A model generated the notes under the pieces. That model was not told where the DNA came from and did no database searches. It saw only the letters and a list, made by a program, of their open reading frames with translations. The translations under genes were made by a program, and so were the position numbers. A DNA stretch of 64,000 nt from Eucommia ulmoides (taxonomy: Eukaryota > Streptophyta > Magnoliopsida > Garryales > Eucommiaceae), in contig CM028327.1 in the NCBI GenBank assembly GCA_016647705.1, forward strand, positions 41,912,517 to 41,976,516, written 5' to 3'. Of the stretch, positions 7,616 through 62,955 are shown one piece after another (the first letter of the stretch is position 1; each line of letters opens with the position of its first letter).

Positions 7616-8107
7616 TTTATTATATATATATATATATATATAATAAATTGAAAGTTTATTTAATATTTCAAAATTAAAAATTAAATATAAATTATAATTA
7701 TTTGGTAAATATAATTAATTTTAAAAACTATTAACAAAAATAATAATAAAAATTGTTTTTTTAAACCCTTTTACCATAAAAACGCACTTCCTTTATAAAA
7801 CATAAGTTTTCATGGACGAAAGTGCCAACAATAAAAGAAAAATAGAAAATAAAATTAACACTTTTTAATTGAAAGTGAGTTTCAGGGATGAAAATGTTAA
7901 AAAAAAAAAATTGAAATTAAAATTAAATAAAGGGACAAAAATGTAATTAATATTTTATAATTGAAACCCAAATTTTTAGGGATGAAAGTGAAAAACAAAT
8001 AGGGGTGAAAATATAATTAACACTTTTTAGTTGAAACCCAAGATTTCAAGAACGAAAGTGAAAAAAAAAAACTAAAATTAAATAATGGGCCGAAAATGTA
8101 ACTTTTA
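7616..8107. repeat. repeat body linking the palindrome cassette to the 186-bp array, left copy
   Basis: After a TA tract (7621-7641) this A+T-rich stretch matches 56.07-56.75 kb closely in wording (for example ATTTAATATTTCAAAATTAAAAATTAAATATAA split by small changes, and ATGGACGAAAGTGCC). It then leads into the tandem array, as in the right copy. Noncoding. Confidence 0.55.
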
Positions 8108-9178
8108 AATAATCGACAAAGTTGGTAGGATGAGTTGTTTTGTAGACGATGCAGTTTTTTTTTTTTTGTTGCAATTTTGAGTTAATAAAAGATGATTTAT
8201 TCGTAACCGTAATGAATCAAATTTTTTTGTACGTAAATTGTGTTCCTCAGACTACGTAATTAAACTTTGAAAAGTAAAAACGGACAAACAAATAACTTTT
8301 AAATAATCGACAAAGTTGGTCGGTTGAGTTGTTTCGATGACGATGCAGTTTTTTTAACAAATTTGACTTAAAAAAAGATGGTCTATCCGCAACCGAAATA
8401 AAACAAAAAAATTTCTACATAAATTGGTTTCCCAAGACTACTTAATAAAATTTAAAAATGTCAGAACGGACTAGTGAATAATTTTTAAATAATCGTCAAA
8501 ATTGGTCGGATGAGTTGGTTCTGATTTTTTTTTTGGCAACTTTGAGTTAACAAAATATGGTCTATCCGTAACCAAAATTAACCCAATTTTTTTTTTGTAC
8601 GAAATGTGCATTCCTAAGAGTACGTAATAAAACTTAAAAATGTCAGAACGGACTATTGAATATTTCTTAAATAATCATCAAATTTTGTCAGATGAGTTGG
8701 TTCTGCAGTTTTTTTTTTTTGATAACTTTGAGTTAACAAAAGTTGGCCTATCCATAATCGAATGAACCCAATTTTTTTTGTACATAAAGTATGTTCCTAA
8801 GAGTACATAATAAAACTTAAAAAAGTCAAAATAGACTAGTGAATAACTTTTAAATAATCGTCAAAGTTAGTCGGATGAGTTGTTTCTGAAGTTTTTTTTG
8901 GCAACTTTGAGTTAAAAAAAATGGTCTATCCGTAATCGAAATGAACCTAATTTTTTTGTACATAATCTGGGTTCCTAATAGTACGTAATAAAACTTAAAA
9001 ATGTCAAAACGGTCTAATTAATATTTCTTAAATAATCGTCAAATTTGGTCGGATGAGTTGGTTCTGCAATTTTTTTTTTGCAACTTTGAGTTAACAAAAG
9101 ATAGTCTATCTGTAACCGAAATGAACTCAATTTTTTTGCACATAAACTATGTTACTAAAAGTACATAATAAAACTTAA
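8108..9178. repeat. tandem array, about 6 units of 170-194 bp (left copy of the 186-bp repeat)
   Basis: The anchor word AATAATCG(T/A)CAAA occurs at about 8108, 8302, 8488, 8669, 8863 and 9031. Each unit contains in order: TTTTTAAATAATCG, GGATGAGTTG, GATGCAG + T run, AACTTTGAGTTAAC, GGTCTATCCGTAACC, a T run + GTAC, and TACGTAATAAAACTT. Units are more diverged than those at 57-59 kb. The array stops abruptly at 9178 against gypsy sequence. Confidence 0.75.
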
Positions 9179-9896
9179 GTACCTTTTGGCGTGATGAATG
9201 ACGTCCCCTCTTCATCCTGTTGATTCATACGGATTTGGTTGTAACCCGAATAAGCGTCCATCATGGATAAGCGTTGGTGCCCAACCGCAGCATCAACCAT
9301 ATGATCAATCTTCGGCATAGGGTAACAATCTTTAGGACATGCTTGATTCCCGTAAAATCTACGCATATTCTCCATTTTCCATTCTTCTTTTTAACAAGAA
9401 CAGGATTAGCCAACCATCTAGGGTATGTTACTTTCCTTATGTGACCAATGGTAAGCAATTTCTTTACCTCAGCTTCAATTACCTGTTCTTTCTCTGGACT
9501 GAACGTTCTCCGTTTTTGCCGAACTGGTAGATATGGTCTACTAATGTCCAAGCGATGGACTGACACGTCAGGACTTATCCCTATCATGTCAGACGATGAC
9601 CAAGCAAAAGTATCCAAGTTCATTTGAAGCAGTTCTTTGATCTCAGCTTCCTCAGTCTGGTTTAACGATTTGCCAATCATAAGCTTCTGAGTTCCGTTAT
9701 TGAAAGTTATTTGCTTAACCTGCTCAACAGGTTGAATTACACTGGCATGTTTTCTAAAATCATCAATCTCTCCTGTTGATTTTGTCAGCTGACCTGCTTC
9801 ATGAACCTTCTTTAATTGCTATAAAGCAAGGCTTTTACCCTTTATAACTATGGCAAAACACTGTCTTGAGGAAGCCTGATCTCCTCTAATGACTGC
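9179..9896 (-). pseudogene. Ty3/gypsy polyprotein fragment (pre-RT linker and N-terminal reverse transcriptase), broken
   Basis: Minus-strand translation from ATG 9896 begins MAVIRGDQASSRQC, a segment typical of the protease-RT linker of plant gypsy elements, and meets an in-frame TAG soon after. It then runs through an open frame with the motifs LVKKKNGKWRICVDF (RT block) to about 9345. There a frameshift moves the reading to a second frame with CYPMPKIDHMVDA and DAYSGYNQI, which are canonical gypsy RT blocks. The rest of RT (YxDD), RNase H and integrase are absent. The 3' limit coincides with the end of the tandem array. It cannot be functional. Confidence 0.85.
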
Positions 9897-15425: not shown

Positions 15426-18400
15426 ATGGCACACATAGTAGGCAGACTAGTTGAGGGGCAGTCTATACCGACCACATTTGTTTGCAGGTGTAAGTTACTC
15501 ATTTTGAAAAGACAGGATGATAACTTTTCTTCAGACTACAAATTACGATAGCGGCTTACAATCGAGGATGGTCCGTTTATTCCAATTAAAAACGGAGTTG
15601 AGAAGAAGAAAAAACAACTCACTACTTCCGATAAGCAGAAACTCTCCATTAACTCTCAAGTTATCAATATTCTCTTTTGCTCTTTAGATGCGAATGAATA
15701 TTCTAGAGTTTCAGATTGCAAATCTGCAAAGGAGATGTAGGATAAGTTACAAGTCACCCACGAAGGGATAAGTCAAGTGAAGCAATCAAAAATCAATGCT
15801 CTTTTGAGAAAATTTGAGTTATTCAGGATGGAAGAGAATGAATCGATTCATGAGATGTACACTCGTTTCAACAACATATGCAACAATATGAGTCAACTTG
15901 GAAAACCATACTCCATAGAGGATAGAGTACAAAAGGTCCTAAGGTCCTTGACAAAAATTTGGGAGTCAAAGGTAACGGCAATCGAGGAAGCCAAGAATTT
16001 TGGAAAATACGATATTGATGATCTCATTGGCAATTTGATGACTCATGAATTGGCAATTAAAGGTTATGAGGATGATACCGAAAATGAAAAAAAGGAAATC
16101 ATTGACACTAAAAGCTCAAAAAATTGAAAAAGATGATGATAGTGATGATAAAAGTCTTAATAGTGAGCAAGAGAAAAATGTGGCACTTTTTACATACAAT
16201 TTTAGAAGAATAACTCGGCACACATTCCATGGGAGAAGAAACCTCAACATGTCTAAAGTGGAATGTTACAACTGCTGTAAGACCGGTCACTTTCAAAATG
16301 ATTGTCCTAAACTGAAGAAGGATAAAGAAAAGAAAAAGAAGAAGAAAGCAAAGAAAAGTAATAAGAAATCGATGAAGGCTACTTGGGATACCGATTCAAG
16401 TAGCTCTGAAGAATCAAATAATGAGGATACGTCCATGCTTGCATTAATGGCCACTGGTGGTGAGGTAACTGATTGTTCAAGTTCTTATTCTTTAAATTTT
16501 GATGAATTATTTGATATTTATCAAGAACTTTCACATGATTATAAAAACCAGTGTTCTAAAATAAATGCCCTTTAAAGTACAATTAATACATTAAACAAGC
16601 AAGTGGTGAACTAAGAATCTGAAAACAATAGATTGAAATCAAAATTGATGGATTTGCAATCAATTGTTCTCAAATTCACTAGCGGTAAAAATAACTTGAA
16701 AATGCTTTTGGGAAGTTCATGTGGAGTTTTTGATAAAGTCGGTATTGGATTTCAAAAAAATCTTAAACAAAAACGCTTTCATAAATTCTTTTCTGAAATC
16801 AATGATCTTGTTAAATATTTTAAATGTAATGTTGTGGGGTATACTATTTGTAGATGTTTTGTTAAAATATCTAACTGTAGACAAGTTTGGATTTCAAAAG
16901 GAACTAAAATTATCCCGATTAACAAGATTGGACCCACTTAGGAACTATTTGAGGTGCTCCTTGCAGGCTATTCTAAAAACATCAATAAGTAAAGGCAAAT
17001 GATTCCTGGATAGTGGTTATTCTCGACACATGACGGGAGATAAAAGAAAATTTACATCTTTGACACCTAAAGATAGAGGTCATGTAACTTTCGGAGACAA
17101 CGCAAAGGGTAAAATTATCGGTATAGGTAATATCAGTAATGGTACTACTATTAATAAAGATATATTACTAGTTAATAGATTTAAACATAATTTGCTTAGT
17201 ATTAGTCAATTATATGATAATGGCTATAATGTTATATTTGATCATGATAGATGCATTATTAAGAATAGTCATGATAGTAGTATCTTACTAGTTGCATCAC
17301 GTTTTGAGAATGTGTATACTTGTTCTTTTGATGATTTTAATTCTAAAAATTTATCTTGTTTGAATGCTTTATCTCAAAATAGTTAGTTATGGCATAGAAG
17401 ACTTGGGCATACTAGTATGGAGTTAATTTCTAACATATCTAAGAAGAGTCTTGTAGGTGGCCTACCTGATTTGAAATTTGTGAAAGATAAAGTATGTGAT
17501 GCATGTCAATTAGGCAAACAAGTTAGATAATCATTTAAGAAAAAAATGCACACGTCCATATCTAGATATCTTGAATTATTGCATCTTGATTTGTTTAGGT
17601 CTAACTCTGTTGCTAGTTTTGGTGGTAAGTTTTATGCATTTGTTATAATTGATGATTATTCAAGATTTACCTGGGTATTCTTTCTTACTAAGAAAAGTGA
17701 GGTTGCTTCTGTTCTTGCTAAATTTTGTAAACGTGTTCAAAATGAGAAACAATGTTCTATTATTAATATTCGTAGTGACAGAGAAAGAGAATTTAAGAAT
17801 GATGAAGTGGTAAGTTATTGTGATGAGCATGGTTATGCTCACAATTTTTCTGCACCAAGATCACCGCAATAAAATGGTGTAGTGGAAAGGAAAAACAGAA
17901 TGCTTCAAGAGATGGCCAGAACAATGCTAAATGAAAATCCCTTACCAACCTACTTCTGGGCCGAAGCAGAAAGTATAGCTTGTCACGTGGTAAACTTAGT
18001 ATCAATTCGTAGAGGGTTTAACAAAATCTCATATGGAATCTGGAATGGTAAGACTCCTAATATTTCCTATTTTAAAATCTTTGGATGCAAGTGTTTCATT
18101 TTGAATAATAAGGATAATCTTGGTAAATTTGATGCTAAATCGGATTATAGGATTTTTCTTGGATATACTACTAACAATAAGACTTATAGAGCTTATAATA
18201 AACGTACTTTAGTAGTAGAAGAAATAATGCATGTTGTTTTTGAGGAAACTGATACATTCTTATCGAGAAAGGTTTTGGATGATGATGATGTAGGTACTCT
18301 AAATAATCAAAACCAAGGTGATACTGTACTTGGGAAGTCCCAACCAAAGGAGGAACCTAAAGAAAATGATTCAACATTACCAAGAGCTATAAAGACAGTA

Positions 18401-19270
18401 CTAGGACATTCAATTAAAGAAATCATCAGTAATTTTGAAAAGGCGTAAGTACTCGTTCTTCTTTTAGGGATATAATTAATCTTACTTTCTTATCTCAAAT
18501 TGAACCTAAAAATATAAATGAGACGTCAATTGATGAATCTTGAATTTTCGCAATGTAAGATGAATTAGTTCAATTTGAGCAGAACAAAGTGTGATGTCTT
18601 GTTCCGAGACCGGATTTTCATCTAGTTATTGGTACTAAATGAGTTTTTAGAAATAAAAAGAATGAATCTGGCATGGTAATTAAAAATAAAGCAAGATTAG
18701 TGGCACAGGGCTATAATCAAGAGAAAGGAATTGATTATGATGAAACTTATGCTCCTGTTGCTAAACTAGAAGCAATTAGAATGCTACTCGCTTTTACATG
18801 TACATTCACGTAATTTTAAGTTATATCAAATGGATGTAAAGAGTGCATTTCTAAATGGATTTCTAGCTGAAGAAGTTTATGTAGAACAACTCCCAGGATT
18901 TGAAAGTAATAAATTTTCCGATCACGTATTTAAACTTTGCAAGGCTTTGTATGGGTTCAAACAAGCTCCGAGAGCTTGGTATGAGAGACTTAGTCAATAT
19001 TTGATCGAAAATAATTTTCGAGGGGGTATTTGTGATATAACACTATTTGTGAAGTCAACTAATTCTAATATCCTATTGGTACAAGTATATGTTGATGATA
19101 TTATTTTTTTATCTATTAATGAGAATCTTTGTCAAGAGTTTGCTAAGATAATATAGGTTGAATTTGAAATGAGTATGATGAGAGAGTTGAATTTCTTTCT
19201 TGGATTGCAAATTAAGCAAACCAAAGAAGGGATATTTATAAACCAAGCTAAATACATTGTAGGGAAAAGT
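15426..19270 (+). pseudogene. Ty1/copia polyprotein, Sirevirus-like, multiply interrupted and 3'-truncated
   Basis: Order GAG-PR-INT-RT identifies Ty1/copia. Gag starts at ATG 15426 (MAHIVGRLVEG) and meets stops. 15777-16575 gives LLRKFELFRMEENESI, a CCHC knuckle CYNCCKTGHFQNDC and a Lys/Ser-rich tail of Sirevirus style. Protease region: FLDSGYSRHMTG (17010). Then LLSISQL, GAG-pre-integrase LWHRRLGHTS (17390) and C...C zinc ligands. Integrase core: LHLDLF, FVIIDDYSRFTWVFF, IRSDRERE and RSPQ-stop-NGVVERKN (17870). RT: MDVKSAFLNG (18830), LYGFKQAPRAWYERL and YVDDI (19089). At least five in-frame stops or shifts are seen. RNase H and the 3' LTR are missing: similarity ends near 19270 against another repeat. 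Confidence 0.9.
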
Positions 19271-32360: not shown

Positions 32361-33177
32361 TAAATAAATTTTAAAAATATATTATTTTGGTAACAGATTT
32401 TTTTTTTTCCTTCTACCATCTTTCCAGCTTGCAGCAGCCTTCTTTCCTTCCACATGCTTCATTTTGCTTTTCGTCTTGCCGACTTCTGTGTCCTTGTGAG
32501 ATTCAATGACTCTCTCTGGGAGGGAAATACCCAACAGCAACTTGTATCCTGGAATGTGTCTTTAAACGAGGGGTGGTGCTTGCCATTTTTCCCAATAAAC
32601 ACTCTTCATCTTCCTCTTTCACTCCTCGGAAGCATGGGCTCAACTCGAGCATCACTTCTCGCCCTGTTTGTCTTCCTTCGTTCTTCTATCTTGGCCATCG
32701 CCGGCAACTTTTCACCTACTGACAATATTGCCCTAGCCTGTGGTTTCTCCGACAGTTCATCGGTGCCGAACGGCTGACTCTGGGTCGGCGATACCAGTCC
32801 CCGAACCCGGTTCCTTCATTCTCCGGCGCGATTGACTGGCAAATCGGTTAACTCTCGGCCTCCCCGCAAAGCTACCGACTCCTCCGGCCCTCCTTATGTC
32901 GCCGCCCGGATTTCCCGTCATGAATTTTCCTACTTGTTTTCCGTCAAGCCTGGCCCGAAATTCCTCTGGCTTCACTTCTACCCGGCTCCCTATTTCAAAA
33001 ACTCCATCGATTTCTTCACGGTCACTGCCGGTGCTTACACTCTCCTCGCCAACTTCAGTGCTTCCCTTGCTGCTGAGTCTTCCGGCAAGCGATATTTCAC
33101 TAAAGAATTCTTCATAAATGTCGACGAAAATCAAGCGCTCAACGTAATTTTCTCTCCTCTTCTGACCAGTCTTATTA
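32360..33177 (+). pseudogene. truncated duplicate of the receptor-kinase gene (promoter, signal peptide, part of malectin-like domain)
   Basis: Closely matches 37490-38365 of the intact gene, including upstream DNA from about 130 bp before CTTTCCAGCTTGC. ATG 32634 opens MGSTRASLLALFVFLRSSIL. Codon 48, Arg (CGA) in the intact gene, is TGA here (32775-32777). Downstream, the frame stays recognisable (a second frame covers 32832-33209) until a small deletion just before CAGTCTTATTA, after which homology stops at about 33177. The breakpoint abuts an inverted piece of the TIR element that lies upstream of the intact gene. It could make at most a 47-residue peptide. Confidence 0.9.
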
Positions 33178-37805: not shown

Positions 37806-40698
37806 ATGGGCTCAACTCGAGCATCACTTCTCGCCCTGTTTGTCTTCCTTCGTTCTTCTATCTTGGCCATCGCCGGCAACTTTTCACCTACTGACAATAT
37901 TGCCCTAGCCTGTGGTTTCTCCGGCAGTTCATCAGTGCCGAACGGCCGACTCTGGATCGGCGATACCGGTCCCAGAACCTGGTTCCTTCATTCTCCGGCG
38001 CAATTGACTGGCAAATCGGTCAACTCTCGGCCTCCCCGCAAAGCTACCGACTCCTCCGGTCCTCCTTATGTCGCCGCCCGTATTTCCCGTCATGAATTTT
38101 CCTACTCGTTTTCCGTCGAGCCTGGCCCGAAATTCATCCGGCTTCACTTCTACCCGGCTCCCTATTTCAAAAACTCCATCGATTTCTTCACGGTCACCGC
38201 CGGTGCTTACACTCTCCTCGCCAACTTCAGTGCTTCCCTTGCTGCTGAGTCTTCCGGCGAGCGATATTTCACCAAAGAATTCTCCATAAATGTCGAAGAA
38301 AATCAAGCGCTCAACGTAATTTTCTCTCCTCTTCCGAGAGCGAGCGCTTCTGACGAGTCTTATTACGCTTTCATCAACGGGATAGAAGTCGTCTCCATGC
38401 CAACAGCCCTTTACCACACTCGCGAAGGCCATCAAGGTGCCCACGTCGTTGGTCACGGGTATACTTTCTTCATCGATCGAAAAACAGCACTCGAAACGGT
38501 TGCTCGGACAAACGTCGGTGGGAACTCCATTTCACCGGCCGAAGATTCCGGCATGTTCCGCAGTTGGTCGGAAGACACTGAATTCTTGTCGGAAAATGGC
38601 TTGATTTCCACTAGCACAACCTTTGTTGTCAGATTCTCGTCCACCTCGACACATACAGCACCTGTGAAACTTTACCAAACTGCTAGATCAACAGCCCCCA
38701 ACGACCATATGGATAAGATTAACGATCTCACATTTGAAGTAGCTGTGGATTTAGGATTCAGGTACCTAGTCAGGCTCCATTTTTGTGAAACAAACGGAAT
38801 CCAGCAATGGTTGTTTGAAATTTTCATTAACAATCAGATTGCCGAGGCTGATGCCGATGTTAAAAAGTGGGGCGGTGGACACGGGGTCGCAGTCTATAAA
38901 GACTACGTCGTGTTAATGGAAGGAGACAAGATGAAGAGCAGACGTGACCTTGTCATTGTTTTGCGGCCAAAGCTTGGCCGAAGTGCAGCATTCTTAAACG
39001 GTTTAGAGATATTCAAGTTGAGCAACCCCGACAACAACCTCGGAGGCGCAAATGCTTTGAACCGGGTACGAGGTTTGCCGCCCAAGAAGAAGACGTCCCG
39101 TAAACTATCTAAGAATTGGATTTCAACTGTAGTCACTATTGTTATTGTCGTACAAAGCATCGTTGTCTTTCATCTGAGGCGAATTTCGGAAGCCCAATCG
39201 GGTTATAAACCCATGCGTGTGTCCGACTATGAGCACGTTTGTAGGCAATTTTCGTTTGAGGAGATGCAATTAGCGACTAGCAACTTCAGCCGCGAGTTTG
39301 TCATCGGAAGGGGTGGATACGGTGACGTTTACAAGGGGCAAATCCACCACCACGGAGCAGTGGTCATTGTTGCTATCAAACGACTCCGGCCCGGGTCGAA
39401 TCAGGGGGCGAATGAGTTTTGGACGGAGATCAAAATGCTATCCAAACTCCGTCACGGCCACTTGGTCTCTCTCATCGGGTACTGTGATGAAGACGGCGAG
39501 ATGCTTTTGGTTTACGAGTACATGGAAAGAGGAACATTGGGGGATCACCTTTTCAAGACTGATCGAAACCCGCCGCTTTCATGGGATAAACGGCTTGAAA
39601 TTTGCATCGGTGCCGCCCGTGGGTTGCTCTTCATCCACACCTCGGAGAATATGATCATCCACCGGGACGTGAAGAGCTCGAACATCCTTCTAGACATGAA
39701 TTGGGAAGCCAAGATTTCCGATTTCGGGTTGTGCAAAATGGGCCCGCCCACAAGCGAGTCGTGCAGCCACGTCACCACTGACGTGAAAGGCACACCTGGG
39801 TACTTGGATCTGGATTATTACTCGACACGTCAGCTGACCAAAAAAGCCGACGTTTACGCGTTTGGAGTCGTGTTGTTTGAAGTTCTGTGCGGGAGGCCAG
39901 CGGTGGTCCCGATGGCGGCCGAGGAGGAACGTAGTCTGGCTGTATGGGCGACACAGTGCGTGGAAAAGGGCAGAGTTGATGAGATCATCGACCCGTGTCT
40001 TGTCGGGAAGATAACGCCGGCTTGTCTGAAGGTTTTTACAGGAATTGCCGTCAAATGTCTGCGCAAAATTCCGAAGAAGCGGCCTTTCATGGATAATGTA
40101 ATAGAAAGGCTCGAGTTGGCATTGGCGTTGCAACAAAGCTTGGGTTCTCTTGAGGAGGAGGAACCACAAGAGCAAGATGGTATTAATCTATCAAACATGA
40201 GTAAAGAAGAGTCCTTGAAGATCCAGGTCCTCTCTCTCTCACTCTCTCATTTCTGACCCATTTTCTTTTTTTTTTTCTTTCATTTTTTGAAATGGATCTT
40301 TTTCTGGGTAATGTTGGTATTTTCTCTTGATGTTGAAATAAGGAATAATAATAATTTATTTTTTGATTTGCTCTGTTTTTTGTGTCCTCTGCTTTTGCTT
40401 GTGCATGCAGACTTGTGTTCTGAAAGTGAACATTCACTGCAAAAGGTGTGAGCATGAAGTGAAGAAAACCTTGAAGAAGATTGATGGTATGCCCCCCATT
40501 TTCATTACCCAATTCTCCAATTTTTTTTATTATTTTTTTTTAAATTTCTTCAATTTTTTTAAAGGGGTTTACGAGGTCCGTATACATTCAGAGAAGGGCG
40601 AGGTCAAGGTGACTGTTTCTGGAAATGTAGAGCCTTCAACTCTGATCAAGAAGCTGAAAAATATCGGTAAAATTGCAGAGATTTTGGGGTGCTCCTAG
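37806..40698 (+). CDS. malectin-like receptor kinase (CrRLK1L/FERONIA type) predicted to splice into an HMA domain
   Basis: CrRLK1L kinases are plasma-membrane receptors whose malectin-like ectodomain senses cell-wall or RALF-peptide signals. ATG 37806 is preferred over an earlier in-frame ATG because it begins a good signal peptide (MGSTRASLLALFVFLRSSIL). Residues of about 25-400 are malectin-like (FSPTDNIALACG, FIRLHFYPA, YLVRLHFCE). The TM is about 437-459 (STVVTIVIVVQSIVVF). Kinase: G-loop GRGGYGDVYKG at about 500, VAIK at 525, HRDVKSSN at about 618, DFG at about 639, and GTPGYLDLDYY. All catalytic residues are present. The domain is intronless, as is usual in the family. The frame does not stop after the kinase tail. 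It runs through MSKEESLKIQ (40197-40226) to donor GT 40227. With acceptor at 40410 and a second intron 40487-40564 the frame stays open through an HMA domain (CKRC) to TAG 40698, 876 residues. Unspliced, it ends at 40256 (816 residues). The fusion is inferred; the kinase gene itself is clear. Confidence 0.85.
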
Positions 40699-40870
40699 TA
40701 AACCCAACAATGGCGGCAATCAACCCATCAATAATCAGCACAAGAATTTTCGAATTGATAACAAGAACGGCAAGACAGGGACAGGGGCAAAAGGGCGTAA
40801 ATAATCAGCCGAAGGTAGGGCAACGGGGTCCGAATCAGCAGCAATTGCAGCATCATCTTTGCAAATACTC
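40197..40870 (+). pseudogene. HIPP-type heavy-metal-associated isoprenylated protein gene: HMA exons intact, C-terminal tail frameshifted
   Basis: HIPPs are metallochaperone-like proteins that begin MSKEEFLKIQTCVLKVNIHC in many eudicots. Here exon 1 is 40197-40226 (MSKEESLKIQ), exon 2 is 40411-40486 (TCVLKVNIHCKRCEHEV..., CxxC metal site kept) and exon 3 starts at 40565 (GVYEVRIHSEKGEVKVTVSG...TLIKKL). The family then continues with WGAP and an Asn/Gly/Gln-rich tail ending in a prenylated CaaX. In this copy the reading after IAEI shifts (one extra T before GGGG) and stops at 40696-40698. WGAPSKPNNGGNQP lies in another frame, and NNQPKVGQRGPNQQQLQ in a third. Similarity ends near 40870 at an unrelated repeat, so the CaaX end is missing. 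Exon 1 is simultaneously the tail of the kinase frame. Confidence 0.85.
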
Positions 40871-41884
40871 AAACTGGTACTTTGCTAGGGGGTGGGTATT
40901 AGATTTATAGCCGGTGTACACAACACCGGCCATGACCATTGGGGAATTTTTTTTTGAAGCCAAATAAATCCGGTGTTATAAATATGGGCCTACGCCCAAA
41001 AAAATAAAAAAATAAATTACCACTAAATACTATTTTAACTTTTCATCTACCATTAAATATTAATTAGTTAAAACTGAACAAAAAAACTCTCATCTTAATA
41101 ATTTGAATTTTTTGAACAGATTAGTTCCATTTTCAAAAAATCTCAAATGTCATATTATTATTTCGCCCTTCCCCATTTAACCCTATTGTCTCTATCATTC
41201 GTGCATCGTCGTCTTCCAGTTGCTCCATCGCCATCTCAACCTTCCATCGCCGTCTTCCCAATTGCTCTTCTCCATCACCGTCTCAACATTCCATCACCGT
41301 CTTCCCAGTTGCTCTTCTCCATTCGCCGTTTCTCGACTCTCCACTGATGTAATCGTCTTCACCTCCATCGCCGTCGTATACTGCTCTCCGTCATCATCAT
41401 CAGCCATTGCCTTCGTCGTCTACACCGCCATCGTTGCCGTCGTCTCCACTACCATCACTGTAAACTCCATCTCTCTCTCTTTCTCTCTCTCTTGATCGAT
41501 TTCATTTTTCGATGTTTCAATTGGTGATTTCAACTTTTGATTTCATTTTCCCAAAAATTGATTTAGGGTTTAGGGATGAAATAATTGATGAAATTATTTC
41601 AGGTAGATGTCTTCCATCAACGATAATTTTTGGTATCTTCCATCAACCATTTGTGTAAGCTCCTGTCTCTCTCTCTCTCTCTCGATTTTTCAATTTTCGA
41701 TTTGTTGATTTTTATTGATTTTAGGGGTATGTTTGAAATTTTGTTCATCTGTCCATTTTTCTCGTTGATTTCATGATAAAACAGCTGAATTTAAATCGAC
41801 TGGTCAATGCACTATTGTATAATAAAATACCATATTTCCTTGCTAACCATATTATCGTTTTACCTTAGGATCGGGAGTTATTAT
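40871..41884. other. repeat-derived spacer with palindromes and a leader-like block
   Basis: 40908-40935 holds the palindrome GCCGGTGT...ACACCGGC, followed by ATGGGCC TAC GCCCA at about 40983. These belong to the palindrome class seen elsewhere in the window. 41160-41460 is a TTCCATCGCCGTC-type run like 23.86-24.06 kb. CT tracts lie at 41471-41492 and 41670-41690, with ATTTTTCGATTT repeats. No gene. Confidence 0.45.
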
Positions 41885-42137
41885 ATCCACCCTGCAGAAC
41901 TTGCCTGACAGGTAACAACATATATTCATCCTGTAGAATTTGTCTGACAAGTAATAATATATCCACCCTGCAGGACTTGTTTGACAGGTAACAACATATA
42001 TAATATATACATAATATATCCACTTTGTACGACTTGCGTGACCAGTAATAATATATATAATATATCCACTCTACAGAACTTACTTGACAGGTAACAATAT
42101 ATATAATATATTCACCCTGCAGAATTTGTCTGATATG
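41885..42137. repeat. array of about 40-bp subrepeats (left part), interrupted by a hAT-type element
   Basis: Units of form ATATCCACCCTGCAGAACTT + GCCTGACAGGTAACAAC recur about six times with 38-48 bp spacing. They are introduced by CCTTAGGATCGGGAGTT, also seen at 5.6 kb. The array continues on the far side of the inserted element at 49172-49270 (CATCCACCCTACATGACTT, CTGACAGGTAATAAT). Probably subrepeats of an LTR-like sequence. Confidence 0.7.
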
Positions 42138-44739
42138 TAGGGATGACAAAAAAACCCGAGCCGACGGGTAACCGAGATAAACTAAACCGAATGGTCCGGG
42201 TTGAAACCCACTAAATGATTTTGGTTTTGGTTTTAAATTTAGAAACTAAAACGGTTTTGGTTTTAGTTTTAGTTTAGGATAGTAACCGCGTCATCGAACC
42301 GTGTAATCGAATTGCGTGACCGAAACTGCAAGCCGAACCGTATAATCGTGTAACCGATATATATATATATATTATTTAGTATTTACAATTCAATCTCTTT
42401 TTTATTTATTTATATTTTTAACCTTTTTACTGCACTTCAACCCTATTATAAATATATCTTATATGTATACTAGCGTATAACCTGTGCCTAAAGGCACGGA
42501 TTAAAATTACAACCCAACCATAAAATAAAAAAATAACTAAATTTTAAAAATATAATACATTTCTTTTAGTTGCTCGAAATTTTGTAGTCTATTTTTCTTG
42601 AGAAAATTTGAAACAATTACTAAATTATATTTAATGACAACTTGAACTAATTACAATATTTGTATCTTTGATTTTTTAATATAATCTCCACCATTTATAC
42701 AACATTTTACACCTATTTTATTTAAATATCAATAATAACTAACAATTGAAATTAAAACTTGTACCGATATAAAATAAAAAGACATGGTACCATTTCGCCC
42801 GTATTATAGATTCTCAATAAGAAAAAGAAAGATTATACATTCTTTATACATACACACTACTTATATACCTATATAGAGTTTCTAATAGATTCTCTTTTAT
42901 GTTTCATATACACCCTAAAAATTAAAATACAAAATAAAAAAATTTAGACACCATAAATTACACCAAAAAGAATGGAGATCATTAAAATAAAAATAAAAAT
43001 CTTAATCATCCTAGAAGATAAAAAATATGGTCAAACAAATTTGTAGTGGAGAATTAAAATAGCACCAAGCTAAATTATAAAACACTACTCAAATAATTAT
43101 AATCCGTGCATTCAAATTACTTTGGGTGTAGGGACCAAATATTGTTTAATTACTTCTTTAAATTTTCCTTTAATGATAATTGATTTCTTAATTAACTAAA
43201 CACACAATTTCCAGAAATCAAGAAAATTAGTGCCGGCTTCTCAAAAACAAAAACTGGTTTAAAAATCTAAAGGCAGTACAAATGCACGCTCCCAACTCCC
43301 AAAACCAAAAGATGCAAGGCATGCATATATGATTGCAATTTAAGTGACTTTCAATATATACATGTAAAGAAACTCATATATTAGAAAAACGTCGTAAACA
43401 TGAACCTCCATTGAGAACAGATCATTGAAGGGAACCAATATAATCAATAAAAAAGTTAATACTAAGAAAATGTATAAACATACCAAGGAGATCCCAAGGG
43501 CTAAAACTTCATGCATTTGTATTGAGGAAGACGTCTTAAAAATCTCACACACAGTACAATCAAACAGAGAGAAAATTAAGAACATTTTCAACACGTTCCA
43601 AAAAATTAGAACCATCACTCGTTAGCTACAAACAATTATAATAATCCAAAACATCTTTTAAAATTGAACATCACAACACATTTCCAAAAAAATGGGAGTA
43701 TAACAATGGATCATACCTGAATAGAATTGACAATGAACTTGAAATACATAATGATATCTGTTAATCCACGATGGATTAATCGACGCCGATCTAAACCTGA
43801 ACCTAATTGACAAAAACACTAAACAAACACCACCTTTTTGGCAATGAAAAATCTAAAAAGATAACCAAAAAAATAGAACGAATGACAAACAACTGGGAAC
43901 ATAAGAGAAAATTAGAAAATCTGCGAACATAATAGAAATATGGGAACATAATTCTGGGAACAAACAGAAATCTAGAAATAGAACAAACAGAATAGAAACG
44001 GAAATTTGCTTGGAACCAAAACAGTAAAAAACACCACCTATACAACATTTTGAACTTCATAATAACTAAAAGTGGAACATCATAATCAATAATTCAATAA
44101 TAATAACAAAAAATCAAGATCCGCACTTAATTCATTTGAATATCAATAATGACTAAAAGTTAAACATCAATAAAAACTAACAAACAAAACTAAATACATG
44201 CTATTCCATTACACTATCAAGCAAAGAATTGATGATTAAAAAAATTGGGTTAATGAAGCACAACACCCAGTGCTGTGGGAATTTACTTGTATTGCTCCGA
44301 GTACAACTAAATTCTTAATAGTCTGACATGAAATCATCGTGGACAGTGGACACCTATTAAAAAATCATAGCAAATGATCAGAACTATTTTTAATCTATAT
44401 TCCTAACCATTGTTAGCAAATGTCATTGATACAGCAAACTCAATCAGGAATTCTAGTGATGATATAATTTTGGGGAAAGAAATTCAAACAATACCCAAAA
44501 ACTCTTTCGTCCCTATTTTACCCACTTTAGCTAGCAGCAGAGTGTGTTGCAAATGCAGGAGCAATGGATAATCTACCCAATCCCTAAGCAATTGCATACA
44601 ACATTAGATTTGAAAAACACAAATCTTCATACAATTTTAAAGAAGGAAATTAGGAGATTTAGCTGAGAGTCAAATTGGTTTAACAAAATTAGTACAATCA
44701 ATTAGAAATAAAAATCTAGAAGAATAACTCAAATTAAGT

Positions 44740-52900: not shown

Positions 52901-52990
52901 CTTCGATGTTGAATTTTGAAATAGCGAGTTAATCCGACAAATAAACTTACCAATTTTTTTTAGAGAGAGAATCAATTTTTTCGAGATTTT

Positions 52991-54432
52991 ATGCTCGCTG
53001 TCAATCCAAATGCTCAATTTGGGAACTTTGAAACAGTCGAGGATAATGCCTTGAAGCTCTACAAGGTAAAAGAACAAAAAGTCAAACACATTTTCAAAAA
53101 TCTGGAGGCAAGAATCAGCATCTTGGTTGAAACCCTAAGGAGCCCTTCTTTCAACGAGTATATGTGTCTCACCGCAAACTTCATTGATGATTCTTGGAAA
53201 CATAAGAAATGGGTTCTCAAATTCGATATTCTCTCTAAAGATATCCTTCCGGTTGCCATTCAGAAGGCGCTCAAGCACTGGGATCTAGAGGACAAGATTT
53301 CCACCATCACCTTGAAGAGTGATACATTCATCAATGACGTCGTTGATTCGATCAAAGAGGAGATTGAGAAAAAAAGGCAGCTTCAACTTAATGGTAAGCT
53401 ATTTCATGTGCATTGTTGTGCTGATTTATTCAACCTAATAGTTCAGGTTGCTTTTGATGCGATCCCAGACATCATTAGCAAAATCAGCTGGCTTACTTCG
53501 ATGCCTAAATCTCTGCCTTTGTGGTATCTCAAAAATTCATGGCTGGAGGATGCTTTGGAGTTGAATTCAATTGGAGAATTTGCTTCATTACCACAGGGCG
53601 ATGTTCCCATCCGATGACGAGTGGAAGAAACTCGAATTCGTATGTAAACTAGTTGACAAATTGCATAATGTAGCGAAGGGTTTGTTCAAAGCGAAAGATC
53701 AAGCCGCTTCCGTGTTTCTTCCAACTCTGTTGGAGCTTAAAGCGAGTTTGAACATGGAGATGGCAAGTTCATCATTGGATTCTTTCATGGTTTCGGTTAT
53801 GGAGAAATTGATTTTGAAGCTTGATAACTACTGCAAAGACATGTTCTTGGTGCTTGCAATTGCCACGATCATGGATCCCCGATATAAAGTGAAGTACGTG
53901 GAGTTTCTATTGAAGAAATTTGAGGATACCGATGATCTTAACTCGAGAATTTCATCTCTTATGGAGGCGATTCACTCCATTTATAAAGATTACCCAACGG
54001 GTTTTCTTGCGAAAGATGAATCCATGGTGGATTCAAGTTCTTCTGAATCAGAAGAGGAAGACCCTCAATTTTCAAACAAGAACCAGAGCAACCGAAATGA
54101 AAAAAATCTCTGACATAGTGCAAATTTACAATGAGTTCATTCAATCTACGAATCATTCTTCAAAATCAGAGCTAGATTTGTATTTGGAAGAACCGGTGGG
54201 GGAATTTGGACAAGATTTCAACACATCGGATTGGTGGAAAAGGTCGAGTCCTAAGTTTCCTAATCTCTCACGAATGGCTCGTGATTTCTTGGCGATTAGA
54301 TTCTCCGTTCTTACTTCTTATGATGCTTATTATTATGAAGAACAAATCATCGAGCGCGAGCTTGTCTCGCTAGGTCCGGGGATGATGAATGCGGTGATGT
54401 GTACCCGAAGTTGGAACCCAAAGAAGCATTGA
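52991..54432 (+). pseudogene. hAT transposase-derived gene (RICESLEEPER/DAYSLEEPER type), N-truncated, two frameshifts
   Basis: Such proteins derive from hAT transposases: BED zinc finger, RNase-H-like core, C-terminal dimerisation domain. Here the frame from ATG 52991 reads TANFIDDSWKHKKWVLKF, LNGKLFHVHCCADLFNLIVQ (core) and LEDALELNSIGEFASL. A shift near 53590 moves it to SDDEWKKLEFVCKLVDKLHNV, ATIMDPRYKVKYVEFL. A second shift in an A run near 54105 moves it to ISDIVQIYNEFI, SELDLYLEEPVG, FNTSDWWKRSSPKFPNLSRM, the hAT dimerisation motif. The BED finger and the first part of the core are absent. Downstream of 54432 no more homology is seen. Probably a dead copy; undetected small introns could explain one shift. 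Confidence 0.85.
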
Positions 54433-56800: not shown

Positions 56801-56829
56801 CATAACCAAAATGAATTCAATTCTTTTGG

Positions 56830-59230
56830 CAACGTTGAGTAAATAAAAGACGGTTTATCCGTAACTAAAATTAACCCAATTTTTTTTGTACGTAAACTGG
56901 GTTCCTCAGACTACGTAATGAAACTTCAAGAAGTAAAAACGGACAAATGAATAACTTTTAAATAATCGTCAAAGTTGGTCGGATGAGTTGTTTCGATGAC
57001 GATGCAGGTTTTTTGGCAATTTTGAGTAAACAAAAGACGGTCTATCCGTAACTGAAATGAACCCAATTTTTTTTTTTACGCAAACTAGATTCCTAAAGCT
57101 ACGTAATAAAACTTCAAGAAGTAAAAACAAACAAGTGAATAACTTTTAAATAATCGTCAAAGTTGGTCGGATGAGTTGTTTCGATGACAATGCAGTTTTT
57201 TTGGCAATTTTGAGTAAACAAAAGACGGTCTATCAGTAACCGAAATGAACCCAATTTTTTTTTGTACGTAAACTAGGTTCCTAAGGCTACGTAATAAAAC
57301 TTCAAGAAGTAAAAATAGACAAGTGAATAACTTTTAAATAATCGTCAAAGTTGGTCAGATGAGTTATTTCGATGACGATGCCCTTTTTTTGGCAACTTTG
57401 AGTAAACAAAAGACGGTTTATCCGTAACCGAAATGAACTCAATTTTTTTGTACTTAAACTAGGTTCCTATAATAAAACTTCAAGAAGTAAAAACGGACAA
57501 GAAAATAACTTTTAAATAATCATCAAAGTTGGTCGGATGAGTTATTTCGATGACGATACAGTTTTTTTGACAAATTTGAGTAAACAAAAGACGGCCTATC
57601 CTTAACCGAAATGAACCCAATTTTTTTTGTACGTAAATTGGGTTCCTAAGGCTACGTAATAAAACTTCAAGAAGTAAAAATGGACAAGTGAATAACTTTT
57701 AAATAATCGTCAAAGTTGGTTGGATGAGTTGTTTCGATGACGATGCAGTTTTTTTGGCAATTTTGAGTAAACAAAAAACGGTCTATCCGTAACCGAAATG
57801 AACTCAATTTTTTTATACCTAAATTGGGTTCCTAAGGCTACGTCATAAAACGTGAAGAAGTAGAAACGGACAAATGGATAACTTTTAAATAATCGTCAAA
57901 GTTGATCGGATGAATTGTTTCGATGACGATGCAGTTTTTTTGACTACTTTGAGTAAACAAAAAACGGTCTATCCGTAACCGAAATGCACCCAATTTTTTT
58001 GTACGTAACCTGGGTTCCTAAGGCTACGTAATAAAACTTGAAGAAGTAAAAATGGACAAGTGAATAACATTTAAATAATCGTCAAAATTGGTCGGATGAG
58101 TTGTTCGACGACAATGCAATTGTTTTGGCAACTTTAAATAAACAAAAGACGGTCTATCGTAACCGAGATGAACGTAATTCTTTTGTACATAAATTGCATT
58201 CCTAAGACTACGTAATAAAACTTGAAGAAGTAAAAACGGACAAGTGGATAACTTTTAAATAATCGTCAAAGTCGGTCGGATGAGTTGTTTCGATGACGAT
58301 GCAGTTTTTTTGACAAATTTGAATAAACAAAAGACGGTCTATCCGTAACCGAAATGAACTCAATTTTTTTTATACGTAAACTGGGTTCCTAAGGTTACGT
58401 AATAAAACTTGAAGAAGTAAAAACAGAGAAGTGGATAACATTTAAATAATCGTCAAAATTGGTCGAATGAGTTGTTTCGATGAAGATGCAGTTTTTTTGA
58501 CAATTTTGAGTAAACAAAAGACGGTCTATCCGTAACTGAAATGAACTCAAATTTTTGTGTACATAAACTGGGTTCCTAAGGCTACGTAATAAAACTTCAA
58601 GAAGTAAAAACGGACAAGTGAATAACTTTTAAATAATCGTTAAAGTTTGTCGGATGAGTTGTTTCGATAACGATACAGTGTTTTTGGCAACTTTGAGTAA
58701 ACAAAAGACGGTCTATCTGTAACCGAAGTGAAACCAATTTTTATGTACTTAAACTTGGTTCCTTAGGCTACGTAATAAAACTTGAAGAAGTAAAAACGGA
58801 CAAGTGGATAACTTTTAAATAATCGTCAAAGTTGGTCGAATGAGTTGTTTCAATGACGGTGCAATTTTTTTGGTAACTTTGAGTAAACAAAAGACGGTCC
58901 ATCCGTAACCGAAATGAACCCAATTTTTTTGTACTTAAACTGAGTTCCTAAGGCTACGTAATAAAACTTGAAGAAGTAAAAACGGACAAGTGGATAACTT
59001 TTAAATAATCGTCAAAATTAGTCGAATGAGTTGTTTCGATGACGATGCAGGTTTTTTGAATACTTTGAGTAAACAAAAGACGATTTATCCGTAACCGAAA
59101 TGAACCCATTTTTTTTGTACGTAAACTGGGTTCCTAAGGCTATATAATAAAACTTGAAGAAGTAAAAATGGACTAGTGAATAATTTTTAAATAATCGTCA
59201 AAATTGGTCAGATGAACTATTTTTGGATGA
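56830..59230. repeat. tandem array, 13 units of about 186 bp
   Basis: Anchor AATAATCGTCAAA at about 56961, 57149, 57337, 57515, 57702, 57888, 58074, 58258, 58445, 58632, 58818, 59004 and 59189. Most spacings are 184-188 bp (one 178). Each unit: ATAACTTTTAAATAATCGTC, GGTCGGATGAGTTGTTTCGA, GACGATGCAG + T run, TTTGAGTAAACAAAAGACGG, TCTATCCGTAACCGAAATGA, a T run + GTACGTAAACTGGGTTCCTA, TACGTAATAAAACTT(C/G)AAG. Units are more homogeneous than at 8-9 kb, so this array was amplified or homogenised more recently. Confidence 0.9.
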
Positions 59231-60069: not shown

Positions 60070-62955
60070 CTATTGCGGTAGTACAACTCTATACACAGGT
60101 CGTTGCCTTTGGGGACATCTTCGTTTGTCATGGCCAGTTTGCGTACACAAACTGCATCTGTTAGTCAACATCCTCCTCGAAACGTCCATCTCATTTTGAA
60201 TTCTTGATGTAGATGGTCGTCCACGTGTAACAGTCCTAAGACGGTGTGGATGAGGAACCATGATTGGCATGTTCGTCGGTGGCCAATAAGCTTCGTGTGG
60301 CATCGGATTGAAGTAGTTCTGCCAAATCTGTGAATATACTTCCATTGTGTACGTAGGATCCACAAGTGAAAATGGATCCTCTCCAACAACAGTAGTCACA
60401 GCCATTATGTGGGAGCACGGAAAGCGATATGTGGCATATTTTCCATAGGAACAACTAGGTTCCGGTCTAAGGAAGACAACTTGTTGATTGTGTCCCCCAG
60501 AATCTCGTTGCCTAGTCTTTACTTCAAAGCTCCCATCAATCTTGTGGTAATTTAAATTTACAAATTGAACGACTTCAATGAATAAAAATAGGAAAAACTT
60601 GAACTCAAAACAAGTAATGCCAAATTACTTGTTGAAGCTAACACCCTCGTGTGTATTTCCCCTTGCTTTATTCTTTCTTAGTTCCTCGACGACATGGCAA
60701 GCATACTTAACTTCATTGGCATTTTCTCTAGCTGCCTCTCAACGTCGCTCATCAAAATATTTAACAGTGCGATAAAACGTAATTTGAACTATTGCAGTGA
60801 TTGGAACATTTCTCGCCCCTTTAAGCACGCTATTAAATATTTCGGCAAAATTTGTAGTTTGTATACCCCAACATCTACCCTCATTGTGGGACAGTGCCCA
60901 TTTTTTGGCAGGAATTTTTTGTAACCAAGCCTTGGCCTCGGGTTTAAACTCTCCAATCTTCTCCATGATCTGATCAAATTTTCGAATCTGGTGGGCACTG
61001 CCGACTTTCCATACAATGTTCTTCAATTGTTGATTCTGGTATATTTTGATGAAGTTGCTCTGGATGTGACGTAGACAATATCGGTGATGTCCACGCGGTC
61101 CACAGGATGGATTCTCCCAAATATCCCGAACAACAGACTTGATGGACTGGTGCCGATCCGATATGAGGGTCACATTAGACAACTGCCCAACGACATGAAT
61201 GCGGAGTTTCGTTAAAAACCAATGCCAACATTCATATGTCTCTTCCTCCACAAGTGCAAAAGCAATGGGGAAAACTCTGTTGGATGACAAAACGCCAACA
61301 GTGGTAAGCAATTTGCCTTTATACTTTCCGCTAAGAAATGTGCCATCAATGCAGATCACTGGTCGACAATACTTGAATCCTTCTATTGCGGGCTTGAATG
61401 CCCAGAAGAACTTATCCAAGATGAAACTGCCGAGGGTATTACTAGGAAATTAGTCAAATTGCGCCATAGTATCGAGGTTGAAATATTGTAACGCAGCAAC
61501 ATACCGAGGCAACTTTTCATATGACTCGTTCCAATCCCCAAATAGCATCCCTACTGCTTTCGTCCTCGTCAGCCAAGCCTTAGGATAGGATCATGAACTT
61601 ATAGTTGTCGCATATATTCTGTCTAATGAGAGCTATCTTGACTTCGGGATCATGCTGCAACATTAATTAATGCAATGATCCTTGTTATTTTCATGCAGTG
61701 ATCCTTGTTATTTAAAATGAAAGTATACTTATAAAACTATTTAAATTGATGACAATCATAAACTTACAACAATTTGGTTAAGCAATCTATGAGCAATCAT
61801 TCCCGAATCTAAGTTGGAATAATCTCGATTCGACTTCGAAGACAAACAAGTATGGTTTCCACCGTATCTTGTTACCTCAAAGTAATCGTGTTTCTTTTTC
61901 CAAACGGCACGCAACCACCACCGACAACCATTTTGGCACTCAACAATCCACTTCGTCTGCTTGCTTTCCCTGACGATGTACTCACCATTAACTTTCATGT
62001 TATACATCTTTACTGCTTTTTTAAGTGACTCTTTATCTTTAAAAACCATCCCGACGCTGAACTCTGGGCTTTCAGGATCCCATATCTTCATGTTATTTTT
62101 GCATTTGTAGTCTCTAATAATTGTTGTATCTCCATATTCGTATTCTGACATGTATGGGATCGAGGTCTCGTACGTCATCTGCACATTATCATCATCGGCA
62201 TCAGCGATGACATCATCAATCTCATGGCGATCCACAGGTCCGGTGTCCCCTATAGCCGTGTCGATGTCATCCTCGTTCAAATCATCTATGGGGTCGTTTG
62301 CCATCAACTCCTCGTCAACATGGTTGTCCACCGTAGATGGATCGTCCATCGTCGTCTCAGGCTCAGCCACTAGCTGCTGAACTGCATTCGTCGAATCTCC
62401 ACAGATACGAGACAGGGCTCGCTCGAAACTACCACTAGGGCCTACGTTGGCCTCGTAGATCGACTGCGATTGGAAGTTCTCAACAGGGTCTTGCGAGTAA
62501 CCACAACCACTAGGCCCTACGTCGACTTGGTAGACCGACTGCGATTGGAAGTTTCTAATATGGTCTTGCGAGTAAGCTGAGGGATTGTACTGGGAAACGC
62601 TCGAAAAATCGTTCAAATTTCATTCTTCTGTTAGCATCCTACTATATGACCCTACTTCGTTGGTCAACGCAAGACCAAAATATTTTGTTCGAATGACTTC
62701 CTTCTCCACGTAAATTTCAACTGTATATATCTCGAGAAATTGCAAAGGTATGCGCAAGCACACTGTAAGCACGTCGTCATCCTCAATTGGATACAATGTA
62801 CTGATCCAATGTGACTGCCATTGATACAATGGGTATCGGCATTGAAACTTCAAACGTACATTTTCCCCGTCTAAAACTACATTCGGCCTTATCGCATTTA
62901 TAAACTCGTCCAACGTCATACCGATACTGAATGATCTTATCTCTTTAGGAGGCAT
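60070..62955 (-). pseudogene. MuDR-family transposase, nearly complete, DDE triad intact but interrupted by stops
   Basis: From ATG 62955: PB1-like N-terminus (MPPKEIRSFSIG) to an in-frame TGA at 62620. Acidic linker, then MuDR DNA-binding domain (GMVFKDKESLKKAVKMYNMK, ECQNGCRWWLRA, GGNHTC) at 62080-61800. An intron is likely before about 61660 (TTGCAG|CATGATCCC). YPKAWLTRTKA, then an in-frame TAA near 61450. DDE core 61419-60739: CIDGTFLSGKYKG (D1), LISDRHQS (D2), CLRHIQSNF, TTNFAEIFNSVLKGAR (E). TGA after FDERR. SWIM region near 60460-60400 reads CSYGKYATYRFPCSHI, where CxC is expected. C-terminal zinc knuckle CSLCTQTGHDKRRC near 60115. All domains survive in order, with three stops, one shift and one altered zinc ligand: a recently dead copy. 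Confidence 0.88.

Follow-up and report, generated by a model that had tools for sequence, protein, structure and literature searches.

HMA-like domains have been noted in both NLRs and tandem kinase proteins (PMC12835825, excerpt), and Table 3 of that 2025 review lists barley RPG1 as an HMA-pseudokinase-kinase protein, a precedent by which a kinase-HMA fusion as such is not new. In the NLRs Pik-1 and RGA5, whose effectors are listed in the same excerpt, a HIPP-like HMA is set in another protein and has a bait role. Wheat Lr9 (WTK6-vWA) and Sr43, both cloned as resistance genes, combine kinase with non-kinase domains that are proposed decoys; for Lr9, it is the second kinase and the vWA domain that were hypothesised to be integrated decoys (PMC10260399, excerpt). 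Among CrRLK1L receptors, two of the four CrRLK1L-1 genes at a sunflower broomrape-resistance locus encode two kinase domains and no ectodomain, with active and ATP sites in the first kinase only (PMC8866362, excerpt), and the MEDOS CrRLK1Ls of Arabidopsis are involved in the way growth responds to Ni, Cd and Zn (PMC6093868, excerpt). HMA goes unmentioned in the excerpt of a paper on wheat RLKs (PMC11968617), and in the literature searched (titles and abstract starts listed from open-licence papers) we found neither a description of a CrRLK1L-HMA fusion nor a paper that treats CrRLK1L and malectin together with tandem kinase proteins.

The window (the whole stretch of 64,000 nucleotides of Eucommia ulmoides DNA that was analysed, which contains no N anywhere) holds a FERONIA-like CrRLK1L receptor kinase and an unrelated domain, the HMA of a HIPP gene, in one open frame at the DNA level, after predicted splicing. 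The features discussed here are as follows.

37806-40196, forward strand: CrRLK1L (FERONIA-like) receptor with signal peptide, malectin-like ectodomain, transmembrane stretch, kinase and short tail, 797 codons upstream of the HIPP ATG (from Pfam and the FERONIA structures; signal peptide and transmembrane stretch by eye)
40197-40226, forward strand: HIPP exon 1 (MSKEESLKIQ), sharing its phase with the kinase tail
40227-40410, forward strand: HIPP intron 1, GT...AG; if it is retained, the protein stops at 40254-40256
40411-40486, forward strand: HIPP exon 2, first half of the HMA including CKRC
40487-40564, forward strand: HIPP intron 2, GT...AG
40565-40698, forward strand: HIPP exon 3, second half of the HMA, with a terminal stop that comes from a frame shift
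40670-40853, forward strand: what is left of the HIPP tail, passing from one shifted frame (~40670-40798) to another (40776-40853), without CaaX
32368-33165, forward strand: broken copy of the 5' part of the receptor, 89.6% identical in DNA, with a TGA at 32775

As in RPG1, HMA and kinase share one protein, whereas the HMA of RPG1 is N-terminal and accompanied by two kinases (PMC12835825, excerpt) and that of the Eucommia gene lies C-terminal to one kinase. Pik-1 and RGA5 are NLRs, whereas the present protein is a receptor kinase known from sequence alone, and the extra domains of Lr9 and Sr43 differ from its HMA. Its single kinase places it outside the tandem kinase proteins, which have two or more. 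To our knowledge, RPG1 has no malectin ectodomain. What appears to be new, at the DNA level, is that one frame combines an intact receptor kinase with an HMA fragment that is open but has diverged.

An earlier note on this DNA had described a CrRLK1L frame that lacks a stop after the kinase tail and passes in phase into MSKEESLKIQ, with exons of 2421, 76 and 134 nt joining in phase to 876 codons; both observations were reproduced, with GT and AG at the ends of both introns. The spliced coding sequence of 2631 nt (37806-40226, 40411-40486 and 40565-40698) comprises 876 codons and a TAG stop with no internal stops, and the two introns measure 184 nt (68.5% AT) and 78 nt (76.9% AT), respectively. 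The open frame of the kinase exon extends from 37512 to a TGA at 40254-40256, and the part of it that enters the fusion amounts to 807 codons. Pfam located a malectin-like domain at residues 68-404 (Malectin_like, 5.6e-21), a kinase at 499-769 (PK_Tyr_Ser-Thr, 1.6e-42) and an HMA at 811-868 (2.2e-10), all of which exceed the curated cut-offs, and the kinase-HMA frame that had been predicted is correct. The two homologies, to the receptor and to HIPP, are far beyond chance. Two joined pieces are expected to read in phase about once in three by simple arithmetic, so a shared phase does little by itself to argue for selection.

The receptor part matched the solved FERONIA ectodomain at 8.1e-77 and the solved FERONIA kinase at 5.5e-108, and its signal peptide and transmembrane stretch were recognised by eye as hydrophobic stretches. 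As had been noted before, the kinase keeps its glycine loop, catalytic Lys, HRD Asp and DFG Asp, and the HMA keeps its CxxC (as CKRC). The kinase half looks constrained: one of 69 near-invariant positions (at least 97% invariant across the clade of first kinases, K1, of its relatives) is altered (L610I), and at least one of the same 69 is altered in 52 of 121 relatives. The PE of the APE-equivalent motif reads LD; among 119 K1 domains, P is found in 111 (L in three) and E in 93 (D in 14). Within a clade of 127 tips, the fusion kinase has the longest terminal branch, with a root-to-tip distance that ranks only 22nd of 127.

Relatives of this receptor usually carry a second kinase. The counts drew on 186 proteins listed by the HMA-region search, a first search for relatives of the receptor and a search with the kinase end alone; of these, 153 had a kinase match (119 with two kinases, 27 with one, six with three and one with four), as scored by a counter that misses some second kinases: P0065, P0122 and P0137 were scored as single, yet show two kinase stretches by Pfam. 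The first list of relatives, made up of the 120 of 3600 with the highest summed scores, was dominated by two-kinase proteins of 1100-1300 aa; because ranking by summed score favours such proteins, residues 690-815, the kinase end, were searched alone as a check on this bias. By a kinase profile made for this analysis, a further kinase lay downstream in 39 of the 55 matches to the kinase end, including all of the first 33 by rank, 24 of which have a malectin-type Pfam domain and nine of which do not. All species-named proteins among these 33 come from plants that we take to be asterids. No full kinase followed in the other 16 matches, with P0166 and P0175 stopping 13 residues or fewer past the match; these two and P0172 are single-kinase relatives. 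More generally, two-kinase CrRLK1L-type proteins were common in asterids (P0034-P0186). Two side cases among those 16, in which the protein continues into other domains, are P0184 (Catharanthus roseus), in which a CrRLK1L-type kinase is combined with LdpA iron-sulphur domains, and P0186 (Tanacetum coccineum), in which it is combined with TIR and NB-ARC; each may be a gene-model fusion.

A tree built from 288 kinase domains placed the fusion kinase as sister to a group of 48 first kinases, 46 of them belonging to proteins that were scored as having two kinases and two to proteins scored as single. Support was 0.992 for the 49 together and 0.676 for the 48; these values were taken once the tree had been re-rooted at its midpoint and may apply to an adjacent branch. 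Named members of this group include Coffea, Solanum, Capsicum and Erythranthe, presumably all lamiids, a kinship that makes an asterid source of this DNA probable. Catalytic residues were counted in the 119 two-kinase proteins: K1 had the complete set (catalytic Lys, HRD Asp, DFG Asp) in 117 (two gapped, none lacking), and the second kinase (K2) missed at least one of them in 87, kept all three in 29 and was gapped in three. Judged by these residues, K2 would usually be inactive. A two-kinase protein such as P0036 of Coffea arabica (1193 aa) resembles the fusion from the malectin-like ectodomain through the first kinase (62.5% identical) and the acidic tail to where the linker starts, but proteins of this kind run on into a second kinase, mostly without a catalytic residue, where the fusion has its HMA. 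Correspondingly, the kinase tail of the fusion aligns with the acidic stretch of the relatives and weakly with the start of their linker, after which comes the HIPP ATG; the HMA thus occupies the position where most near relatives hold a second, usually catalytically incomplete kinase. No second kinase was found in the window, which extends 23 kb past the HIPP piece (two K2 queries, to which only kinase 1 matched at E < 1). From relatives that are ~60% identical, we infer that the HIPP piece took the place of K2; since single-kinase relatives exist, loss of the second kinase may have preceded the HIPP join or been unconnected with it.

The HIPP part of the fusion is a fragment. The region of exon 1 and the HMA is 59-73% identical to 32 HIPP-like proteins (69-73% for the best ten), at least five of which, among the matches listed, are named HIPP32- or HIPP33-like. 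We take the sources of the best ten to be mostly asterids, with Nelumbo and Ancistrocladus as non-asterids. The match starts at the ATG at 40197, with most of the HIPP proteins beginning MSKEE or nearly so, and the HMA follows in a single frame. When the 32 HIPP-like proteins were compared with 40561-41020, the tail moved to a second frame at ~40670-40798 and, in at least five proteins among the 40 best matches listed (P0001, P0005, P0008, P0012 and P0017), to a third frame ending at ~40853, near which HIPP homology stops. The stop of the fusion at 40696-40698 is the product of the first of these shifts, a one-base shift in the HIPP tail, and the second lies further on. The protein terminates in AEILGCS before this stop, and a CaaX isoprenylation end is absent. 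Thus, unlike the HIPP32/33-like proteins with which it shares exon 1 and the HMA, the fusion has no intact tail, though one is still recognisable in shifted frames. The earlier note had itself raised the possibility of an accident of gene-fragment shuffling, a doubt that is strengthened by a HIPP piece that is both truncated and frame-shifted. The HIPP relatives found span 481-595 aa; because the protein search took lengths of at least ~482 aa, with short HIPPs outside its scope, the HIPP parent may have been shorter.

The HMA itself has diverged. Four of 34 near-invariant HMA positions are altered in the fusion, compared with two at most, and a median of zero, among 30 HIPPs (of the 32, P0030, in which the motif was not found, and P0032, which has an insertion, were left out); one of the four changes (W to L) is due to the frame shift. 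The CDGC loop usual in HIPPs has become CKRC, and there is a two-residue in-frame insertion, while the hydrophobic pattern looks preserved by eye. These changes fit a constraint that has been either relaxed or redirected, between which site changes cannot separate. By length alone, both shifts would fall in the tail with a chance of ~0.17 (arithmetic), so their position is no sign that the HMA was protected.

The search for other CrRLK1L-HMA proteins that had been proposed came back empty: none of the 33 matches to the HMA region (of at least ~482 aa) had a kinase; 32 were HIPP-like, an HMA domain being listed for 31 of them, and the remaining one was a RING protein. This search depends on exact five-residue words and RPG1-like proteins are absent from its matches, so diverged HMA fusions would be missed. 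P0033 of Camellia sinensis (TEA_023015), a predicted RING E3 that runs into MSKEEFLKIQ and half of a HIPP HMA, is either another HIPP join or a gene-model error.

Regarding the origin of the join, both HIPP introns are kept, which indicates that the piece arrived as DNA and not via an mRNA copy and disfavours a HIPP retrocopy. That a transposon inserted cleanly at the end of the kinase is also disfavoured, as the HIPP ATG lies ~20 codons or fewer past the recognisable kinase tail and a repeat scan of 40150-42500 returned AT-rich or simple inverted pairs only, no arm of which fell at the 5' junction. The broken receptor copy at 32368-33165, ~5 kb upstream of the fusion gene, covers the 5' region and ectodomain, with similarity ending near 33165; from its sequence it is a pseudogene fragment and a mark of local duplication. 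Ka/Ks between the two copies was 0.57 (seven synonymous and 12 nonsynonymous changes, one copy being dead), with no clear departure from neutrality. Repeats are abundant in the window, and the surroundings of the fusion gene look transposon-rich by eye: 9261-9818, 16042-18448, 52964-54432 and 60070-62619 resemble retroelement, hAT and Mutator-type transposase frames. Two tandem arrays, at 56815-59215 and 8099-9176, are related, with a spacing of ~186 bases and ~78% likeness between arrays.

Taken together, we favour, with somewhat better than even confidence, a chimeric gene in which a CrRLK1L without its C-terminal (pseudo)kinase was joined to a HIPP32/33-type fragment and would be spliced to a malectin-TM-kinase-HMA product. 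The starting receptor would have been a malectin-TM-kinase protein from a CrRLK1L group in which two kinases are usual, and the simplest history is that its C-terminal (pseudo)kinase end was lost and the HIPP fragment came to stand in its stead. The join would lie within the tail that follows kinase 1, and its other side would be a HIPP32/33-type fragment copied at the DNA level, with its first two introns retained. Inherited HIPP splice sites are normally used, which favours the fusion: these sites are most likely still active, giving an mRNA for an 876 aa protein whose HMA would be cytosolic, at the pseudokinase position. The gene is thus likely spliced as a fusion. The readings weighed below overlap with one another, and the probabilities that we attach to them do not sum to one.

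The rival that survives best is that this is a working single-kinase receptor to which the HIPP fragment contributes either just a stop, which on retention of intron 1 lies at 40254-40256, or an HMA appendage that is not under selection. Retention of intron 1 would yield a single-kinase receptor with a foreign end of 19 residues, and the intron 1 donor, CAG|GTCCTC, is weak, matching five of nine positions of the usual consensus. The strong conservation of the kinase against the four altered HMA sites, the decayed HIPP tail and the existence of single-kinase relatives such as P0166 and P0175 all point the same way. Every HMA exon is nonetheless open with intact splice dinucleotides, and the HMA still exceeds its Pfam cut-off and keeps both cysteines; we regard this reading as possible, at something under one chance in three.

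Considerably more doubtful is a function as an integrated bait: the HMA, lying in the slot of the pseudokinase, would bind pathogen effectors directed at HIPPs and in response switch either the neighbouring kinase or a helper NLR. The best argument for it, positional only, is that the relatives hold a mostly inactive second kinase where the fusion has its HMA; the CxxC loop is also among the HMA changes, and RPG1 as an HMA-pseudokinase-kinase protein (PMC12835825, excerpt) and the decoys hypothesised for the second kinase and vWA of Lr9 (PMC10260399, excerpt) offer parallels. The architecture does not recur, however, among the 33 HMA-region matches. If the favoured chimeric gene has gained a new function at all, an effector-binding HMA bait beside an active kinase, of the sort proposed for the HMAs of NLRs and tandem kinases, would be the likeliest one, even though we give it a small chance. 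It is conceivable, if improbable, that the pseudokinase slot is exchangeable and was swapped for an HMA bait from a pathogen-targeted HIPP, which would make the protein a membrane receptor with an intracellular decoy.

Slightly less probable again is that the kinase and HIPP are not adjacent in the genome, through an error of assembly, or that the locus is wholly dead and unexpressed. The repeat-rich window and the broken receptor copy upstream speak for this, but against it the window has no N, and an 807-codon open exon with a single change among 69 near-invariant kinase sites is unlike a long-dead gene. Least credible is a metal-sensing receptor, in which a metal-binding HMA would tune a CrRLK1L of a kind that affects growth under metal stress: CKRC is retained, MEDOS CrRLK1Ls act in Ni, Cd and Zn responses (PMC6093868, excerpt) and several relatives of the fusion receptor are named after At5g39000, which the sunflower paper cites for metal-ion adaptation (PMC8866362, excerpt), but the usual CDGC loop is now CKRC, and we consider this reading very unlikely.

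If the chimeric gene is unexpressed, it would be an instructive case of an intron-bearing gene fragment joined to a receptor before selection acts. If it is expressed, its product would combine a membrane receptor kinase and an integrated HMA, an architecture not met among the 33 HMA-region matches or in the literature searched, which would suggest that in two-kinase CrRLK1Ls the C-terminal pseudokinase is itself a refillable bait slot.
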